DNA of 64,000 nucleotides from a bacterium. GTDB lineage: Bacteria > Myxococcota_A > Bradymonadia > UBA7976 > UBA1532. This document shows positions 1 through 9,632 of this stretch, one piece after another. Where the stretch lies: positions 1 through 64,000 of the forward strand of contig JAUHYW010000041.1 in assembly GCA_030426085.1 (NCBI GenBank). The letters are read 5' to 3'. The translations under genes and the position numbers were made by a program. The notes beneath the pieces were generated by a model. It saw only the letters and a list, made by a program, of their open reading frames with translations. It made no database searches and was not told the DNA's origin. Position 1 is the first letter of the stretch. Each line of letters starts with the position of its first letter.

Positions 1-770
1 TTGGTGAGGGTGTCGCCGTCGATATCATCGTCACAGGCATCGCCGATGCCATCGCCGTCGATGTCGGACTGGTCGGGGTTGCGGGTGAACTCGCAGTTGT
101 CGAGCGGGCCACCGTCGGCGTCGAAGTCATCGACGCCGTCGTTGTCGTCGTCGGGGTCGCAGGCGTCCCCCAGACCATCGCCGTCAATGTCGCCCTGGGC
201 CTGATTGGGGTGATCGGGGCAGTTGTCGGGGCCGTCGAGGATGGTGTCGCCGTCGCGATCCGAAATGAGCGGAGCGGCGTCGTCGAGGTCATCGACGCCG
301 TCGCCGTCGGAGTCGGCGAGGAGCGGGTCGGTCCCGCGGTCGGCTTCGTCGTCATTGGAGATGCGGTCGCCGTCGATGTCATCGTCGCAGGCGTCGCCTT
401 GGCCGTCGCCGTCGGTGTCGAGCTGGTCGGGGTTGGAGACGAGGCGGCAGTTGTCATTCGCGTCTAGGACGGAGTCGTTGTCGCTGTCACCATCACATGC
501 GTCCCCGATGCCATCCTCGTCGCGGTCGGCCTGGTTTTCGTTGCCTGTATCGGGGCAGTTGTCACTGCATGCCAGGGGATCGTTCGGCCCCGTACATCGT
601 GGGACACCCCTACAGCTACAGATGGTGTCCTGGCCGAATCCCTGCTCAGCTAGCGGGCAACCCCCTGCGTCCGGTGTCCCTTCGGGGCATTCATCCGTTA
701 TGGGCAAACCCAGCGCCGACGTTGGTGTGAGCAGCAATACCATGAGCAGGAGTCGCGTGTAGCTCCTCAT
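1..770 (-). CDS. Thrombospondin type 3 repeat secreted protein (partial, C-terminus beyond window)
   Basis: Starting at the ATG at 770-768, the minus strand is open to the window edge, giving about 256 residues with no stop. The N-terminus ([21 protein letters not shown]) looks like a cleavable signal peptide. A short Cys-containing segment follows, and then a run of DxDxDG calcium loops typical of thrombospondin type 3 repeats (for example [36 protein letters not shown]), with about nine loops visible. TSP3 repeats bind calcium and form rigid extracellular stalks. The start lies 3 bases after the stop of the lipoprotein gene at 774, so it is the last visible gene of the transporter operon. 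The C-terminal function and anchor cannot be seen. Confidence 0.85.
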
Positions 771-773
771 CCC

Positions 774-1163
774 TCAACTCCCGCGCAGCGTGCCGGTGCG
801 GACCACCAGCTTGTTGACGGTGACCTCGAGCGTGGTCCCCTCGGCCGGCGGGCGCTCGGTCTCGGGGAACTGGAGGTTGAGGATCGTCCCGGCGGTGGCC
901 TCCTCCAGCCAGTAGGGCGGGATGCCGTTGGTCTGGAAGCCGCGGTCGTCCGACATGACGGTGGCCTGCTGCTGCTGGGCCTGATAGCGCACGATGCGAC
1001 AGCGCAGGCGCGAGGTCGCGGTGTCGATCTCTTCGGGGGGCTCGACGAGTTCGCAGCTCGTGGGCAGCAGGTCGGCGCCGAAGCCGGCCTGGGGGCCGCC
1101 GCAGGCCAGGAGCCCGGGCAGGGTGGCCAGCGCCAGGAGCAGTGAGCGGGTGGGGGGGGTCAT
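774..1163 (-). CDS. Small lipoprotein of the peptide-transporter operon
   Basis: This 129-residue protein has a lipoprotein signal (hydrophobic stretch LLLALATLPGLLAC, lipid-modified Cys about residue 21). The mature part is short, mixed alpha/beta in character, with two Cys at about 37 and 54, and no family is recognised. Its ATG (1163-1161) overlaps the TGA of the ABC ATPase gene in an ATGA junction, and a GGAGGAC ribosome site sits inside the end of the ATPase gene. Coupling implies it is made together with the transporter. It could be an accessory lipoprotein near the permease or an envelope protein that merely shares the operon; the sequence does not decide. Confidence 0.8.
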   Translation of the reverse strand: MTPPTRSLLLALATLPGLLACGGPQAGFGADLLPTSCELVEPPEEIDTATSRLRCRIVRYQAQQQQATVMSDDRGFQTNGIPPYWLEEATAGTILNLQFPETERPPAEGTTLEVTVNKLVVRTGTLRGS

Positions 1164-2905
1164 GGCGTCCTCCGGGGGCGGGGGGGGTGATGGCAGGCGA
1201 CCTCGCGGTCGCCGAAGCGTTGCAGTCGGGGGCGATGGGCGTCGCAGGTGGCGGTCCGGGATCGACACCACGCCCGGGCGGGGCAGCCGGTGGCGGTGTC
1301 GGGCAGGGTGAAGCGGCGCAGCTCGGGGTCGCCGTCGGCCTCGCGCTGCTCGCGGCCGGCGCGCAGCAGCAGGCGGGCGTAGGGGTGCAGCGGGTCGAGG
1401 GTCAGGCGGTCGACGGGGGCCTGCTCGACCAGCTCGCCGTCGAACATGACGGCCACCCGGTGGCAGAGCGCTCGCATGAGCTCGAGGCTGTGGGTGATGA
1501 AGAGGTAGGTGACGTCGTACTCGTCGGCCAGGGCGGCGAAGATGTCGACGACCTCGCCCACGAAGGCCGGGTCGAGCATGCTGGTGGGCTCGTCGGCGAC
1601 CATCAGCGTGGGGCGGTCGGGGCGCAGGCCGTGGAAGGCGCGCAATATCTCGACCCGCTGGCGCTGGCCGCCGCTGAGGTGGGCTGCCCGGCGGTCGGCG
1701 AGGTCGGCGAGGCCGAAGGCGGCGAGCTTCTGGTGGACCCAGCGCCGGCCGGCCTCCTCGGCGCCGGGCTCGCGGGCGAGGCGCGGCTCGAGGATGACCT
1801 GCTCGACGGTGAGCCGGGGGTCGATCGATCCGATGGCGGCGTCGGGGTCCTGGAAGACCATCTGGATGCGGTGGCGCAGCGGGTGGTCGGGGCGGTGCAG
1901 GCCGATGAGCGAGGCGCCGTCGAAGGTGAGGGTGTCGGCCTCGCGGGGGTCGATGGGCAGCACGCCGGTGACGAGGTTGGCCAGGGTGGTCTTGCCCGAT
2001 CCGCTGGCTCCGATGAGCGCGGTGTGCTCCCGGTGACGGATGCGCAGGTCGAGGCCCCGCAGTACGAGCCGGGGGCGGCGGAAGGGGGCCCGGAATCGCT
2101 TGGAGATGCCCCGGGCGTCGAGCAGGGTCGGCGCGTCGTCGTCGGCGGTCTGTTCGGCGGCGACGGCCCGCAGGCCCATGGCGGGGGTGACCCGCTGGGG
2201 GTCGCCGTCTTCGACGACCCGGCCGTGGTCGATCACGACGACCCGGTCGGCGTACTGCCGCACGAGCCGGGTGTCGTGGCACACGAAGACGACGGCCATC
2301 TCCGGGCGCTGGCGGCGCTCGCCGGTGATGAGTTCGAAGACGACCTGCTGGTTGATGACGTCGAGCGCCGAGGTGACCTCGTCGGCGATGACGAGCCGGG
2401 GGCGGTTGGCGAGCGCGAGCGCGACGAGCGCCCGCTGCTTCATGCCCTGGCTGAGCTGGTGCGGGCGGTCACCGACGCTGTCGACGGGGAAGTTGACCCG
2501 GGCGAGCGGGGTCCGGGGGTCGGCCGCGAGCCCGGCGAGCGTCTGCATCTGGCGGAGCTGGCCCCCGATCGAGCGGATGGGGTTCAGGGTGTGGCTGAAG
2601 TCCTGGAAGATCGCGGCGAGGTGCCGGGCCCGCAGGCGGCGCAGCGCGCGGGGGCTCAGCGTGAGCAGGTCTTCGCCGCAGATTTGGATGTGCCCCCCGA
2701 GGTGCACCCCGGGCGCCCGGTTGTAGCGGCCGAGCAGGGCGTTGGTGAGCACGGTCTTGCCGGCGCCGTTGGGGCCGACGATGGCCAGGCACTCGCCGGG
2801 GCGCACGGTGAGGTCGAGGCCGTCGAGCACGGTCCGGCGGCCGGCGGGGGTGTCGAACGCGACCGAGAGGCCGGTGACGCGCACGGTGGGTGGGGTGGCG
2901 GTCAT
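1160..2905 (-). CDS. Fused double ABC ATPase of a peptide/nickel-type importer (DppD-DppF fusion)
   Basis: This 581-aa cytoplasmic protein carries two complete ABC nucleotide-binding domains. The first has Walker A GPNGAGKT near residue 42, a variant signature LSQGMKQR and Walker B LVIADE. The second has Walker A GASGSGKT near residue 317, signature LSGGQRQR and Walker B LMVADEPTS. The extreme C-terminus has the HPYARLLL segment followed by a Cys cluster, as in the oligopeptide-transporter ATPase C-terminal extension. In most Dpp/Opp systems the two ATPases are separate; a fused form is known but less common. It should power the permease pair encoded just upstream (ATGA overlap with the DppC-like gene at 2902-2905). 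The first domain lacks the canonical LSGGQ, so the two ATP sites may be unequal. Confidence 0.92.
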   Translation of the reverse strand: MTATPPTVRVTGLSVAFDTPAGRRTVLDGLDLTVRPGECLAIVGPNGAGKTVLTNALLGRYNRAPGVHLGGHIQICGEDLLTLSPRALRRLRARHLAAIFQDFSHTLNPIRSIGGQLRQMQTLAGLAADPRTPLARVNFPVDSVGDRPHQLSQGMKQRALVALALANRPRLVIADEVTSALDVINQQVVFELITGERRQRPEMAVVFVCHDTRLVRQYADRVVVIDHGRVVEDGDPQRVTPAMGLRAVAAEQTADDDAPTLLDARGISKRFRAPFRRPRLVLRGLDLRIRHREHTALIGASGSGKTTLANLVTGVLPIDPREADTLTFDGASLIGLHRPDHPLRHRIQMVFQDPDAAIGSIDPRLTVEQVILEPRLAREPGAEEAGRRWVHQKLAAFGLADLADRRAAHLSGGQRQRVEILRAFHGLRPDRPTLMVADEPTSMLDPAFVGEVVDIFAALADEYDVTYLFITHSLELMRALCHRVAVMFDGELVEQAPVDRLTLDPLHPYARLLLRAGREQREADGDPELRRFTLPDTATGCPARAWCRSRTATCDAHRPRLQRFGDREVACHHPPRPRRTP

Positions 2906-4083
2906 GGCGCGTCCGTCGTCGGGGGTTCGGGCTCGCCGAGGCGGGCTTCGATGGCGTCGCCGAGGTCCCGCAGCGCGGCGGCGAGGGCGACGGTGAGCAG
3001 GCACATCACCAGGGCCGGGGCGAGGTCGGCGGGTCGGGCGAAGGGGTCGATGCGGTGGAGCTGGGCCCCGAGGGTCGAGCCGGTCGACGAGGGGCCGAAG
3101 CCGAGGTAGCTCAGCGCGGTCTCGACGAAGAGGCCCCACACGACGAGCTGGGTGAAGGGGATGATCAGCTCGTGGCGCAGGTGGGGCACGATCTTGCGCC
3201 GCACGACCCGCAGCGCGGACCAGCCCATGAGCCGGGCGGCGATCACGTACTTGCGGGCGGCGATCAGCCGGGTCTGGTGGTGCACGACGAGCAGGACCTG
3301 GGTCGAGTTGACCGCGCCGATGAGCACCCCGACGGCGAGCAGCAGCGCGTCGCCTTCGGTGCCGGCGAGGTCGCGGTACAGGGCGACGGCGGTGACGAGC
3401 ACGACGAACTGGGGCAGCGCGTCGAGGCCGTCGGCGAACCAGCGCACGGCGACGCGCTCGACGAGGCCGCCGCGGTAGCCGCTGATCAGGCCGAGCAGGC
3501 CGCCGAGCAGGGTCGCGACGACCGCGGTGAGCAGGCCGACGAGCAGGCTGCCGAGGGTGGCCCGGCTGAGGGTGAGCGGGTCGGGGCCGGCGGGCGCCGG
3601 ATGGTCGGGGGTCGGGTCGGGCTGCGCGCGGGCGGGGGTGCGCTCGGGCGCGCTCGGAGGGGCCGGCTCGGGGTCTGCGAAGAGCGCGTCGCCGAGCGGG
3701 TCGCCGCTCTCGGCAGGGGCGTCGGGCGAGGTGGGGCCGGGGTCGCCGTCGCCGAACAGGTCGTCGTCGCCCAGGGCGTCTCCTCGGGCAGCGGGCGCGG
3801 CGTCGGGCGCGGGGGGCGCGTCGAAGAGGTCGCCGTGGTCGAGGGGCGCCCGCTCGCCGGGCGGTGGGTCGAGGGGGGCTTCGTCGAGCGGCGCACTGTC
3901 GGGGGCAGGTGGCGTGGAGTCAGGCGCCGTGGAGTCGGAGGCCGTGGGGGCGGGCGCCTCTTCGGTGTTCGCGGGCGGCGGCGTGATGAGCGCGCCGATG
4001 GGGCCGGTCAGCCACGGCAGGCCGAAGACGATGAGCGCCAGCGCGCCGAGGTCGAGGGCGATGCGTCGGGTCGGGCTGCGCAT
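2902..4083 (-). CDS. DppC-like ABC permease with a long Pro/Asp-rich periplasmic insertion
   Basis: This 393-aa inner-membrane permease has TM1 at residues about 9-32. A low-complexity segment rich in Pro, Asp and Ala follows at about 35-168. The usual block of five transmembrane helices (from about 172) carries the EAA-type cytoplasmic loop (ARKYVIAARLMGWSALRV). The C-terminal half matches the BPD_transp_1 domain of peptide transporters. The inserted loop contains three related acidic motifs (GDLFDA, DDLFGD, DALFAD). It pairs with the DppB-like subunit by a TGATG overlap at 4083 and with the ATPase by an ATGA overlap. A low-complexity loop this long is not typical of DppC/OppC; it may span the periplasm or recruit a partner (inference). 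Confidence 0.9.
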   Translation of the reverse strand: MRSPTRRIALDLGALALIVFGLPWLTGPIGALITPPPANTEEAPAPTASDSTAPDSTPPAPDSAPLDEAPLDPPPGERAPLDHGDLFDAPPAPDAAPAARGDALGDDDLFGDGDPGPTSPDAPAESGDPLGDALFADPEPAPPSAPERTPARAQPDPTPDHPAPAGPDPLTLSRATLGSLLVGLLTAVVATLLGGLLGLISGYRGGLVERVAVRWFADGLDALPQFVVLVTAVALYRDLAGTEGDALLLAVGVLIGAVNSTQVLLVVHHQTRLIAARKYVIAARLMGWSALRVVRRKIVPHLRHELIIPFTQLVVWGLFVETALSYLGFGPSSTGSTLGAQLHRIDPFARPADLAPALVMCLLTVALAAALRDLGDAIEARLGEPEPPTTDAP

Positions 4084-5492
4084 CAGGCCGCCCTCCGCTC
4101 GATGAGCACGACCGCGAGCCGCACGGTGAGCTGCACCGCGATGGCGACGCTGAAGAAGACCACCGCGCAGGTCAGCAGCAGCGGCACGTCGTGGGCGTCG
4201 CTGAGCGCGTCGATCAGCAGGCGCCCGAGCCCGTCGCGGGTGAACATGCGCTCGACGACGACGGCGCCGCTGAGCAGGAAGATGGTGCGCTGGCGCAGGA
4301 AGATGAGCGAGAGCACCGCCACGTTGGGCAGCAGGTACCACAGCACGATCGCCAACCGCCCCACGCCCCGGACCCGGGCGTAGTCGACGTAGCGCGAGCG
4401 GTCGACCTCGGCCAGGTTGCGGGAGAGGTCCCGCACGAGGTAGCCCAGGTTGCCGTCGCCGAGGGCGAGCACGGTGGCCGGGATGGCCAGGTGCACCAGG
4501 TAGTCGCCCAGGCAGCCGCCGTCGGAGAAGAGCATCAGCAGGCCGAATCGGCGCTCGGGGCCGAAGCAGGCGCCGACCAGATCGGGGTCGAGCGCCCGGA
4601 AGACCTGGAAGTCGGCGCTGTTGAACGCCGCGCCGAGCAGGTAGCCCACGAGCACGATGGGGATGAAGCTGGCCCCGAGCAGCCCGGTGATCGTCGGGCG
4701 CAGGCCGCGCCGCTCGCGGCCGAGGTGCAGCAGGATCACCAGCGCCACCGCCGCGACGCCCGAGAGGAGCAGGCTGGCGCCGACCAGCATCAGGGTCTGG
4801 CCCAGCGCCGAGATCACCCGGGGCAGGATGCGCATGCCGTCGGCGCCCAGGATGCGGCCCGAGGCCATGTTGCCCGCCCAGCAGGCGTACTTCTCGAGCA
4901 GCGAGGTGCGGTCGTACCACGGCCGGACGATCGGGCGGCCGCTGAGGCAGCGGTCGGGGTCGGGGCCCGGCTCGGGGTGGTCGGCGGCCTCGGCGCCGTC
5001 GCGGCGGCCGGGGCAGAGGTCGTCGCCGTCGAGCACGCCGTCGCCGTCGGAGTCGTCGGCCTCGGGCGAGGTGCCGGCGTAGGGCGGGGCGCCTTCGAGC
5101 GCGTCGCGGATGCCGTCGCGGTCGGCGTCGGCCGGGGGTCGGATCGGCTGGCCGTCGGGGCAGCGGTCGCCGGCGGCCGGCCCGGGGTCGGTGGGGCAGG
5201 GGTCTTCGGCGTCGAGCAGGCCGTCGTCGTCGGTGTCGTTCCAGATGGGGTCGGTGGCCCGGCCGTCGGAGCCGCCGGCCACCTCGAGCCGGTCGGGCAG
5301 CCCGTCCAGATCCACGTCGACCGCGCAGTTCAGCGGGGCGCAGGCGGCCGGGCTGTCCTCGCACGGACGCCACGCGTACCACGCCGCCGCCAGCACGGCG
5401 ACGCCCGCCACGAGCAGCAGCACGAGGCGGTTGGCCAGCAGGGCCAGCGCCGCCGCGACGCGGGCGGATCTCTCCTGTAGTGCGTCCTTCAT
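4083..5492 (-). CDS. DppB-like ABC permease carrying thrombospondin type 3 repeats in its first periplasmic loop
   Basis: This 469-aa protein has TM1 at about 18-42. A periplasmic region at about 48-190 holds four DxDxDG-type calcium loops (DVDLDGLPD, DTDDDGLLD, DADRDGIRD, DSDGDGVLD) and Cys pairs. From about 200 the regular DppB fold continues: helices GQTLMLVGASLLLSGVAAV and following, and a cytoplasmic EAA loop YVDYARVRGVGRLAIVLW. TSP3 repeats bind calcium in extracellular proteins; I know of no standard peptide permease that contains them. The permease core is intact, so the subunit is probably functional. The start at 5492 has only a weak ribosome site; it is kept because TM1 begins soon after it. 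Confidence 0.9.
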   Translation of the reverse strand: MKDALQERSARVAAALALLANRLVLLLVAGVAVLAAAWYAWRPCEDSPAACAPLNCAVDVDLDGLPDRLEVAGGSDGRATDPIWNDTDDDGLLDAEDPCPTDPGPAAGDRCPDGQPIRPPADADRDGIRDALEGAPPYAGTSPEADDSDGDGVLDGDDLCPGRRDGAEAADHPEPGPDPDRCLSGRPIVRPWYDRTSLLEKYACWAGNMASGRILGADGMRILPRVISALGQTLMLVGASLLLSGVAAVALVILLHLGRERRGLRPTITGLLGASFIPIVLVGYLLGAAFNSADFQVFRALDPDLVGACFGPERRFGLLMLFSDGGCLGDYLVHLAIPATVLALGDGNLGYLVRDLSRNLAEVDRSRYVDYARVRGVGRLAIVLWYLLPNVAVLSLIFLRQRTIFLLSGAVVVERMFTRDGLGRLLIDALSDAHDVPLLLTCAVVFFSVAIAVQLTVRLAVVLIERRAA

Positions 5493-5595: not shown

Positions 5596-7266
5596 TCACT
5601 CGCCGCCGATGAGCCGCTTCATGTCGATGGTCCACTCGGTGAGGCTGCCGAAGAAGTCGATGCGCTTGGGATCGACCCCGGTGAACCGGCGGTTGATGGC
5701 GATGAAGCGCTTGCGCGACCACAGAAACAGCGCGGCCTGATCGTCGTAGATGGCGTCGTGGAACTCGCCGAGCACGTCCTGGCGGAGCTGGGCGTCGGCG
5801 GTGCGCTGGCGCTCGAGCAGGGCGTCGAGGCGCGCGTCAGCGTAGCCCCAGTGGTTCGACAGCCCCGCCGAGTGCCAGTCCTGGTACGGGTCGAAGTTCA
5901 GCGACATCGCGTGGGTGACCAGGATCAGGTCGAAGTCACCGCCCCGGCGCCCCTTGGGCCGGGTGAGCCGCTGGCCGAGCCGGCGGGCGTTGAGGCCTTC
6001 GAGCTCCATCTCGACGCCGTGAGCCTCGAACGCCTCTTCGAGCGCGTAGGCGATGCGCCGGCTGCGCTCGACGTCTCCGTTGAAGACGAGCCGGAACGCG
6101 AGCGGCTTGCCCTTGCAGCGGCGCTTGCCCTTGGCCGGAGCCGGGCCGCAGATCTCGTCGAGCAGGGCCCCGGCCGCGTCGGGATCGTGCTCCCAGCGGG
6201 GGTCGATGTCGGGGTCGTAGGTGCCCGTCAGGTGGGGGTCGTAGGGGCCGGTCACCGGGATGGCCGCGTCGGAGACCCGGTCGAAGACCGAGTGGATGAG
6301 GCCGTGCTTGTCGAGCATCAGCGACAGCGCCCGCCGCATGCGCACGTCCCCCAGAAGCGGGTGGCGGTGGTTGACGCCGACGAAGGTGTACGACAGCGAG
6401 GGGGTGGCCTCGCGGGCGGCTTTGGACTCGGCCCGGGAGGCGATGTCGTCGGCGTCCTTGGGCGAGAGATCCATCATCAGATCGGTGTTGCCGATGACGA
6501 GGTCGGTCTTGACCGCCCGCATGTCGTCCCGGTGCTCGCGGTGCACGACGTGGATCGCCGGCCCGGCGTCGCCCAGGTCCCGCCGCCGGGTGAGCCGCAC
6601 GGTGCCCCCGGTCTTGCTCTGCACGACGTAGGGCCCGGTGCTCCACGGCTTGCCGGTCCACGGGGTCTTGAGCTTGCGCAGCCGGATGGCCTGGGCCCGG
6701 CTCATCAGCCGCAGGTTGATGAGCTGCCCCAGCGTATCGGGCCGCCAGATGGCCTTGTCGAAGTCGAGGTGCACCGTGTCGTCGCCGTCGGCGCTCCACT
6801 TGACGAGCGCCTCGAGCAGCCCGGCGACCTGGGGGCTGGCGGTGTCGTTGGCCACCCGGCCCCGGGCCTTGTTGAGCGAGTAGACGACGTCCTTGGCGGT
6901 CACCGGCAGCGGCTCGTCGAGGTCGGAGCCGGCCCAGCGGGCGTCGCGCAGCTTGAAGGTCACCCGGATGCGGTCGCCCTGCTCGCGCAGGGTGTAGGTG
7001 GCCAGATCGGGGCCGAGCTGAAGGTTGGCGTCGACCCGCACGAGGCCTCGCAGCATCAGCTCGATGAGGTTCCACGAGTCGAGGTCCTCGGCCACCATCG
7101 GGTCGAGGTTGATGTGGCTGCCCTGCTGGGCGTACGACAGCTCGCGGTCGACCTCGAGCGTCTGGGCCCCGGGCGCCGTCGGCAGAGCGAGGGCGACGCC
7201 GATGGCGAGGGGCAGCGCGGCGAGGCGGAGCTGCCGCCGGGCGGTGCGATACTCGGGCGGTGCCAT
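5596..7266 (-). CDS. Periplasmic peptide-binding protein, ABC substrate-binding family 5
   Basis: This 556-aa protein has a signal peptide (cleavage likely after LPTAPGA, about residue 34) and the SBP_bac_5 fold. Visible family features are the N-terminal DPMVAEDLDSWNLIELMLRGLVR block, VTAKDVVYSLNKA, STGPYVVQS, and the MRRALSLMLDKHGLI helix. The length fits DppA/OppA (500-560). It is presumed to deliver peptides or related solutes to the permeases encoded downstream after a 103-base gap (5493-5595), the largest gap in the operon. The protein has no lipobox, so it is a soluble periplasmic protein. The substrate cannot be told from sequence. Confidence 0.9.
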   Translation of the reverse strand: MAPPEYRTARRQLRLAALPLAIGVALALPTAPGAQTLEVDRELSYAQQGSHINLDPMVAEDLDSWNLIELMLRGLVRVDANLQLGPDLATYTLREQGDRIRVTFKLRDARWAGSDLDEPLPVTAKDVVYSLNKARGRVANDTASPQVAGLLEALVKWSADGDDTVHLDFDKAIWRPDTLGQLINLRLMSRAQAIRLRKLKTPWTGKPWSTGPYVVQSKTGGTVRLTRRRDLGDAGPAIHVVHREHRDDMRAVKTDLVIGNTDLMMDLSPKDADDIASRAESKAAREATPSLSYTFVGVNHRHPLLGDVRMRRALSLMLDKHGLIHSVFDRVSDAAIPVTGPYDPHLTGTYDPDIDPRWEHDPDAAGALLDEICGPAPAKGKRRCKGKPLAFRLVFNGDVERSRRIAYALEEAFEAHGVEMELEGLNARRLGQRLTRPKGRRGGDFDLILVTHAMSLNFDPYQDWHSAGLSNHWGYADARLDALLERQRTADAQLRQDVLGEFHDAIYDDQAALFLWSRKRFIAINRRFTGVDPKRIDFFGSLTEWTIDMKRLIGGE

Positions 7267-7275
7267 GGGTCCCTC

Positions 7276-8058
7276 TCAGTCGTTCATCGGGCGGGTGCCC
7301 GGCGGCAGGTCGCCGAACAACGCCGTGCGGCGCTGCCCGAAGTCGGTGAGCAGTTCGGTGATCCGGCGGGACAGCTTCGGGGCGAGGCGCCGCCGGATGG
7401 GTTCGAAGACGTCGACGAAGTCGTAGGTGACGATGAAGAAGTGCCGCCGGGCGCCCACCCGGTGATAGAGCCGGGCGAGCGCCCCGAAGATCTCGAGCAT
7501 CTCGCCGACCCGGGCCGGCGACTTGCCGGCGAGGCGCTCGATGGCGGCGGCCTTGTAGGCGAGCAGGCCGCCGAGGTCGACCCCGGCCCGGGGGTCTTCG
7601 AGCAGCGCCCGGAACGCGCAGCGGTCCTGCGCGCCGAGGCCCGCGACCGCCCGGGCGTTGCGCTCCAGCTCGGCGCGGCCCTCCACGTAGCGCAGCCGGG
7701 GCAGCAGGGCGACGTGGGCCGCGTACAGCGCCCCGACGCCGCCCCCCGGGGCCGCCCGCCCGACGGCCTGGCCGTGCGCGAGGAAGGCCGAGCGCTTGGA
7801 CTCCCGATCGAGCGCGTTGAGCGCCTCGACTGCCGCGGCGAACGCATCGGACACCGCGGGGGTTGGCGCCTCGGCCGGGCAGTCGTCGGCGTGGGCCGCG
7901 AGGGGTGTCGTGGCGTGGGCCGCGAGGGGCATCGTCAGGCTCAGCGCGGTCAGGCTCAGCGCGGTCAGGCTCAGCGCGGTCAGGCTCAGCGCGGTCAGGC
8001 TCAGCGCGGTCAGGCTCAGCGCGGCCCGGCCGACGGGTCGGAGGGTGGGTCGTCTCAT
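7276..8058 (-). CDS. Secreted protein of unknown function with a repeat-expanded signal peptide
   Basis: This 260-aa protein has an N-terminus reading MRRPTLRPVGRA, then six copies of ALSLT, a hydrophobic end and an AHA-type cleavage region near residue 55. The mature part (about 200 residues) is alpha-helical, with Cys in DDCPAE and QDRCAF and a C-terminal stretch rich in Arg. I recognise no family. The gene overlaps the propeller gene upstream (ATGA at 8055-8058) and ends 9 bases before the binding-protein start, so it belongs to the transporter operon. The pentapeptide array stands in for a normal signal-peptide hydrophobic core and is much longer than usual. Confidence 0.8.
   Translation of the reverse strand: MRRPTLRPVGRAALSLTALSLTALSLTALSLTALSLTALSLTMPLAAHATTPLAAHADDCPAEAPTPAVSDAFAAAVEALNALDRESKRSAFLAHGQAVGRAAPGGGVGALYAAHVALLPRLRYVEGRAELERNARAVAGLGAQDRCAFRALLEDPRAGVDLGGLLAYKAAAIERLAGKSPARVGEMLEIFGALARLYHRVGARRHFFIVTYDFVDVFEPIRRRLAPKLSRRITELLTDFGQRRTALFGDLPPGTRPMND
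7934..8023 (-). repeat. 15-bp tandem repeat, six copies, encoding ALSLT in a signal peptide
   Basis: Six head-to-tail copies of a 15-base unit (plus-strand reading gtcaggctcagcgcg) lie in the 5' part of the gene at 7276-8058. The unit is a whole number of codons, so gain or loss of copies would lengthen or shorten the signal-peptide hydrophobic core without shifting frame. The copies appear identical, which suggests recent slippage expansion. Confidence 0.95.
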
Positions 8059-9632
8059 GGGGTCTTCCGCTGTACGAAGGTCAGGGTGAGGCGGGCTCGA
8101 TCGGCGCCGGGCACCGGATCCCAGCGGCCCTGCACATCGAGGCCGCCGCCGAGGTCGTGGCGCGGCCGGGGCCCGGTCAGGTTGACCGGCGTCGCGCCGG
8201 CCTCGCGCAGCGTCAGGTAGTACTCCGGCGCGGGTCGGCTCTCGGCCTCGGCGGTCTGCACCTCGGCGAGGAAGATGCCTTGCTGGCCGGAGAACGCGCT
8301 GACCGCGAGGCGGCGGCCGACCGGATCCCAGGCGAGGTCGTAGTGGGTCGGGAAGACCCGTGAGAGCACGGTGGGCCGTCGCTCGGGGTCGACGTGGGCC
8401 ACGACCACCGGGTGGCGGCCGCCGGTGCCGTCGACGACGGCGGCGATGTGATGGGTGTCGAGCCACACGATGTCGGACTTGTTCGAGTTGTAGCGGCCCC
8501 GGCCGATCGACAGCGGCGTCGAGGTCCGGGGGGCGCCCGGCTGGCCACCGGCGGTGTCGGCGATGTGGATCCGCCCGTCGCTGACGAACGCGAGGTGCGC
8601 CCCGGACGGGCTGTAGGCGATGGCCATGGCCGGCTTCTTGCGCGCGCCCGCCCGCTGACCGGCGGCGGCTTCGACCGGCTGCGGCCGCCCCAGCAGCCGC
8701 TTGCGCCGATCGAGGCCGGCCACGACGACCTGCTGCCCGCCGCTGCGTCCGGGCTCGGCCCACCAGAACGCGATCTCGTCGCCGTCGGGCCGCCAGCGCA
8801 CGCCCCGGCAGACCGCCGTCCGCAGCGACGGGTCGGCCCCGTCTCCGCACAGCGCGCCGATCGGCTCGCCGCCCACCGGGCCCACCCGCAGCGCCTCGGC
8901 GCCGACCGGGCGCCACACGAGCCAGCGGCCGTCGGGGGAGAACGCGAAGTCGGTCGCTTCGGGCAGGTCATCGGCGACGGTGATCCGGGCCCGGCACCCT
9001 TCGAGCGCGACCCGGCGCAGCTTGCGGGCCCGGGTCAGCCGCACCACCAGCGTCGTCGAGCCCGGCAGCCACTCGAAGTGGCTGATGCCGTCGTTGCTGT
9101 CTCCGAAGAGCTCGTCGGCGTCCTCGGCGGCGAACTCGATGCCCCGGGGCTCGGGCGCGGCCGCCTTCAGGTCGAGGCACCACAGGCGGGGCAGATCGCC
9201 GATCTGGCGCCAGACGAGGTAGCGCCCCGAGGGGTGCCACAGCGGTCGGTAGTTGCCCGCCTCGTCGCCGGTGAGCAGCCGGTAGCGCGCCCGGTCGTCG
9301 AGCCGGGCGAAGCGGCGGTCGGCGATGCCCGGGTCGCGGGCCACCGGCGAGAACCGCAGGGTGCGGGGGGCGGCGCCGCCGACGATACGTACGGTCGTCG
9401 GATCGGCGGCCCGCCCGACGGGCACGTCGATGGACACGGTGACCGGCCGCCGGCCCCCCAGCGCCTCGGGGGTCGCCTCGCCGCAAGCGTCGCCCGCGGC
9501 CGCCGGGTCACCGGCCACGAGGCACAGCGCGGGGCGCGCGTCGTCGGGGGCGCCGTCAGCCCCGGCGGCGCCGAGCAACAGCCCGACGAGCAGCGCGGAT
9601 CGACCGCGGCGCATTCCCGCCCTGCGGTTCAC
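8055..9632 (-). CDS. Secreted TolB/PD40-like beta-propeller protein
   Basis: This 525-aa protein reads from a GTG at 9632 that overlaps the upstream stop in a GTGA junction; an in-frame ATG at 9614 is an alternative start. A short signal peptide (SALLVGLLLGAAGADGA) is followed by a non-propeller N-terminal segment with a Cys pair. The rest is a set of PD40/WD40-like blades: PLWHPSGRYLVWRQ, FSPDGRWLVWRPV, RWRPDGDEIAFWW, AYSPSGAHLAFVSD, AWDPVGRRLAVSAF. Such propellers bind proteins or peptides in the periplasm. Its place between the TPR lipoprotein and the binding protein suggests an accessory role in the same transporter or envelope complex. No catalytic motif is seen. Confidence 0.82.
   Translation of the reverse strand: MNRRAGMRRGRSALLVGLLLGAAGADGAPDDARPALCLVAGDPAAAGDACGEATPEALGGRRPVTVSIDVPVGRAADPTTVRIVGGAAPRTLRFSPVARDPGIADRRFARLDDRARYRLLTGDEAGNYRPLWHPSGRYLVWRQIGDLPRLWCLDLKAAAPEPRGIEFAAEDADELFGDSNDGISHFEWLPGSTTLVVRLTRARKLRRVALEGCRARITVADDLPEATDFAFSPDGRWLVWRPVGAEALRVGPVGGEPIGALCGDGADPSLRTAVCRGVRWRPDGDEIAFWWAEPGRSGGQQVVVAGLDRRKRLLGRPQPVEAAAGQRAGARKKPAMAIAYSPSGAHLAFVSDGRIHIADTAGGQPGAPRTSTPLSIGRGRYNSNKSDIVWLDTHHIAAVVDGTGGRHPVVVAHVDPERRPTVLSRVFPTHYDLAWDPVGRRLAVSAFSGQQGIFLAEVQTAEAESRPAPEYYLTLREAGATPVNLTGPRPRHDLGGGLDVQGRWDPVPGADRARLTLTFVQRKTP

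Follow-up and report, generated by a model that had tools for sequence, protein, structure and literature searches.

The gene at 4083..5492 of the window, the whole 64,000-nucleotide stretch of bacterial DNA analysed here, encodes a membrane subunit of a Dpp/Opp-type ABC importer in which a TSP3-like module, carrying four predicted calcium loops and seven cysteines, lies at the place of the DppB scoop. The leading explanation, which we hold tentatively and at somewhat short of an even chance, is that the module is a calcium-stiffened docking and sealing arm that replaces the scoop in engaging the substrate-binding protein (SBP). The permease gene has the following features:

4083..5492, minus strand: DppB-type permease with TSP3-like periplasmic module, 469 aa, ATG start
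5370..5444, minus strand: TM1, residues 17-41 (approximate, by hydropathy)
4923..5369, minus strand: TSP3-like module, residues 42-190, at the place of the DppB scoop (by motif, alignment and PDB match)
5283..5318, minus strand: calcium loop 1, DVDLDGLPDRLE, residues 59-70 (predicted from motif)
5202..5237, minus strand: calcium loop 2, DTDDDGLLDAED, residues 86-97, followed by a CP...RC cysteine pair (C99, C111) (predicted from motif)
5094..5129, minus strand: calcium loop 3, DADRDGIRDALE, residues 122-133 (predicted from motif)
5019..5054, minus strand: calcium loop 4, DSDGDGVLDGDD, residues 147-158, followed by a CP...RC cysteine pair (C160, C182) (predicted from motif)
4086..4922, minus strand: alpha3 helix, TM2-TM6 and coupling helix (EAA-type, YVDYARVRGV) (by alignment to E. 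coli DppB)

The permease matched BPD_transp_1 above cut-off (Pfam, 1.6e-7) and E. coli DppB by phmmer (6.3e-10). BPD_transp_1 was found in both permeases of the window (31.7 and 36.0 bits, against a cut-off of 26.4), these being the lowest scoring of the genome's 19 matches to that domain, and the core of the TSP3-module permease is divergent. In an alignment with E. coli DppB and the genome's own canonical DppB proteins, the module filled the position of E. coli DppB residues 32-62, exactly between TM1 and alpha3, and the DppB scoop motif was absent from this interval. An earlier note on this DNA had described an intact DppB-like core with the repeats in one of its loops; the DppB-like architecture holds, with TM1, alpha3, TM2-TM6 and the coupling helix all aligning, but the core is divergent and the module replaces the scoop rather than sitting inside an intact DppB loop. 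AlphaFold models, built with the two available orthologs, reached a pLDDT of 37.7 for the whole permease and 49.3 for the loop, and were unusable. In DppABCDF the DppB scoop sits in the cleft of DppA, and transport suffers when the scoop is deleted (PMC12136057); only recently was the scoop shown to be the DppB element that reaches into the binding protein and closes off the cavity (PMC12136057). The large periplasmic P2 domain of MalF likewise touches MalE (PMC3150292). It is because of these two contacts, and the position of the module at the scoop site, that a docking and sealing arm is favoured.

Four full 12-residue DxDxDGxxDxx[DE] loops lie between TM1 and TM2, against 0.006 expected, and none of 20,000 composition-preserving shuffles of the module segment gave four, which bears out the four DxDxDG units with paired cysteines seen earlier in this loop. 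The module consists of two tandem units of ~60-70 residues, each with two complete predicted calcium loops and a cysteine pair, and its seven cysteines are at residues 44, 51, 56, 99, 111, 160 and 182. In each unit one loop ends in E, a departure from classical TSP3, and the other ends in D followed by CP, the second cysteine lying within RC. Pfam TSP_3 (PF02412) scored 15.2 bits on the module, under its cut-off of 25, and the ortholog in the sister genome was not listed for this family at all, so the TSP3 label rests on the motif, the cysteine pattern and a PDB match. That match, the sole one obtained with the module, was to an OmpA-family protein with TSP3 repeats (5wtl, E 1.6e-5 over the whole chain, single stretches being weak), and within its own genome the module is nearest to an OmpA-like protein that has a TSP3 linker. 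The earlier assignment to TSP3 repeats is thus kept for the tandem loops, cysteines and structural match, and loosened by the sub-threshold Pfam score; the most fitting name for the module is TSP3-like, of the OmpA periplasmic type. Likeness to linkers that are themselves periplasmic favours the docking arm, and the TSP_3 score counts against it.

For such an arm, the module would fold in the oxidising, calcium-rich periplasm around about four Ca2+ and two or three disulfides, and the folded module would form a stiff arm docking the cognate SBP. In sealing the outward-facing cavity the arm would act like the DppABCDF scoop, and in docking like P2 of MalF. We infer calcium binding, SBP contact and sealing alike; the role of calcium would be mainly structural, in which case docking should fail without it.

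An ortholog in the second genome of the genus (L039:9446-10873) is 76% identical over its full length and keeps all four predicted calcium loops and all seven module cysteines. Simple pN/pS values from the two orthologs were 0.28 for the core, 0.38 for the module (0.27 in the first unit, 0.62 in the second) and 0.88 for the acidic loop of the partner permease DppC. Conservation of loops and cysteines, and a module value far nearer the core than the DppC loop, favour the docking arm; the 0.62 of the second unit, which implies weak constraint there outside the calcium loops, and the restriction to two orthologs count against it. The same values bear on whether the module is a passive spacer, a stiff and functionally neutral insert left by domain drift in a tolerant loop. 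Unrelated domains (WD40, helical, lipoyl-like) do occupy this loop elsewhere, but every calcium-ligand position and cysteine was kept between the orthologs while the DppC loop drifted, and the scoop, known to matter, was lost in exchange, which makes a neutral spacer quite improbable. An artefact of assembly or gene calling, with a TSP3 gene joined to a permease gene, was considered since contigs of this genome break at TSP3 arrays and the window begins at a contig end. This we regard as having practically no chance: in the independent sister assembly this gene is also continuous and TM1 precedes the module, and the reading frame is under purifying selection. The assembly join that the earlier note had allowed for was rejected on this ortholog.

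Nor is the insert a feature of many ordinary DppB proteins, as had also been considered. DxDxDG clusters occurred only in these two among a sample of ~63 DppB-like proteins, and only in this permease among the frames at the genome's 19 BPD_transp_1 matches. A search with a profile of the core returned two of the 57 class genomes and two of the 379 phylum genomes, both of this genus, leaving aside three genomes whose frames are of ordinary length and match more weakly; a contig scan across other genomes gave one locus, in the sister genome. About 50 other open frames in the genome, perhaps including alternative frames, carry DxDxDG repeats, with at most one or two hydrophobic segments each, so none looks polytopic.

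The neighbouring genes are as follows:

8055..9614, minus strand: PD40-type beta-propeller secreted protein, upstream, syntenic
5596..7266, minus strand: cognate substrate-binding protein, SBP_bac_5 (2e-36), ortholog 78% identical
2902..4083, minus strand: DppC-type permease, with a 134-residue Asp/Pro-rich TM1-TM2 insert at 3580-3981
1160..2905, minus strand: fused DppD-DppF ATPase, with both sets of Walker A/B and signature motifs and a C-terminal Cys cluster
774..1163, minus strand: small lipoprotein, lipobox LLACGG
1..770, minus strand: secreted TSP3-array protein, cut by the contig end, at the same position in L039

DppB, DppC, the fused ATPase and the SBP form a tightly coupled operon. 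Start and stop codons overlap by 1 base between DppB and DppC, by 4 between DppC and the ATPase gene and by 4 between the ATPase and lipoprotein genes, an arrangement that favours the docking arm. Two ABC ATPase domains were found in the operon (Pfam, 2.7e-48; motifs read directly), and neither a GTDxxGRD motif nor an OppC_N match was found in the DppC partner, whose insert (window 3580-3981, minus strand) contains three acidic motifs with LF and changes almost neutrally from one species to the other. The docking-arm reading does not account for this acidic loop, which counts against it. DppA residues R383 and D436 were without aligned counterparts in the SBP, in what is a weak alignment. The gene order is shared with the sister genome (large secreted protein, PD40 propeller, small protein, SBP, DppB, DppC, fused ATPase, lipoprotein, TSP3-array). 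The TSP3-array gene starts at 770, 3 nt past the lipoprotein gene, as expected from the earlier statement that the operon ends in a TSP3 protein, but the contig stops within it, so further genes of the operon may lie beyond. The gene is cut short in this way in both genomes, long repeats being the probable cause of the assembly breaks. Its adjacency and synteny raise the idea that the module docks the array protein through contact between their TSP3 segments, which would anchor the importer to some outer or surface structure; we give this a slim chance, as the module is closer to OmpA-type linkers than to arrays, and with ~50 other TSP3-bearing frames in the genome the adjacency may be chance.

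The TM1-TM2 periplasmic loop is, on sequence comparison, an insertion hot spot in Dpp/Opp permeases here. The same genome encodes a DppB-type permease with a WD40 beta-propeller in the scoop/alpha3 region (L085:10081-12033, G000:C61:122580-124529; WD40 7.3e-18, BPD 3.2e-40), which is kept in the sister genome (L086:8613-10580, 83% identical). The clade sister to the WD40 permease, with 18 sampled sequences of the class, has helical-looking inserts of up to ~350 residues after the scoop, with no Pfam match to the insert in the one sequence tested; the long-insert permeases are L092-L100, L102-L109, and also L038, L054, L056 and L057. A further phylum member has a DppB-type permease with a weak biotinyl-lipoyl/HlyD-like insert in the same loop, below cut-off (L063; G093:C72, near 158272-158619). 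A shared lineage of the TSP3 permease with the long-loop and WD40 permeases was not supported, the tree putting it on a separate branch of 2.35 changes/site, a long branch whose placement is unsure.

An OppC of another importer of the same genome (L173, G000:C12:41364-42602; orthologs L174-L197) has EF-hands in its TM1-TM2 periplasmic loop (EF-hand_7 1.3e-11, above cut-off; OppC_N 5.3e-11; four loops by motif). Orthologs spanning the loop region were found in about 34 of the 57 class genomes and in four further phylum genomes, most of those sampled having 2-4 intact loops by a simple motif. Predicted calcium-binding modules in this loop thus have two origins, in different subunit types and from different domains, and predicted calcium loops on peptide permeases recur in this class. 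The presence of four EF-hands in the equivalent loop favours the docking arm, and the co-occurrence of both permeases in one genome suggests that calcium stabilises or controls docking. A calcium switch, in which Ca2+ occupancy turns transport on or off and uptake tracks external or periplasmic calcium, would draw on the four complete predicted loops and on the independent EF-hand loop kept across the class. TSP3 and EF-hand loops are frequently structural only, however, and the module lacks a known switch motif; such a gate on the importer is possible, if unlikely, and of the two ideas in the earlier note, calcium gating and partner docking, the latter is better supported.

A wider proposal, that the class's peptide-type ABC importers are calcium-controlled through modules gained independently in the binding-protein-engaging loop (EF-hands in OppC class-wide, TSP3 in the DppB of this genus), so that uptake needs periplasmic calcium, is speculative and probably wrong. 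The natural exchange of a scoop for a calcium module, together with the EF-hand and WD40 versions, allows what the loop must do to be approached as a comparison of natural loop swaps. Among the papers searchable, there was nothing for TSP3 with ABC transporter permeases, two matches that look unrelated by title and abstract for EF-hands with ABC permeases, and no calcium dependence in a peptide ABC importer. We know of no earlier calcium-dependent peptide ABC importer, and if calcium is needed for docking, this would be, to our knowledge, the first such dependence.

Among known systems, the OmpA-family periplasmic TSP3 linker (PDB 5wtl) shares the repeat unit D.D.DG..D..D.CP......C. That linker connects a barrel and a peptidoglycan-binding domain, whereas the module here belongs to an inner-membrane permease and has alternate loops of the DxDxDGxxDxxE type. 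The EF-hand OppC proteins (L173-L197) are likewise Opp-family permeases with several predicted calcium loops in the TM1-TM2 periplasmic loop, but they are OppC subunits, use EF-hands, are class-wide rather than genus-restricted, and keep the canonical GTDELGRD. MalF P2 of the maltose importer is also a big periplasmic permease loop (residues 91-271) touching its binding protein (PMC3150292), but MalF is of another subunit family, with the domain at another position and no calcium, and the likeness is one of role only. E. coli DppABCDF (DppB, PDB 8z1v; PMC12136057) is alike in permease family, operon content, alpha3, TM2-TM6 and coupling helix; here, by contrast, the scoop (32-62) is swapped for a 149-residue Ca/Cys module, DppC is without GTDxxGRD and has a long acidic loop, and the ATPases are fused.
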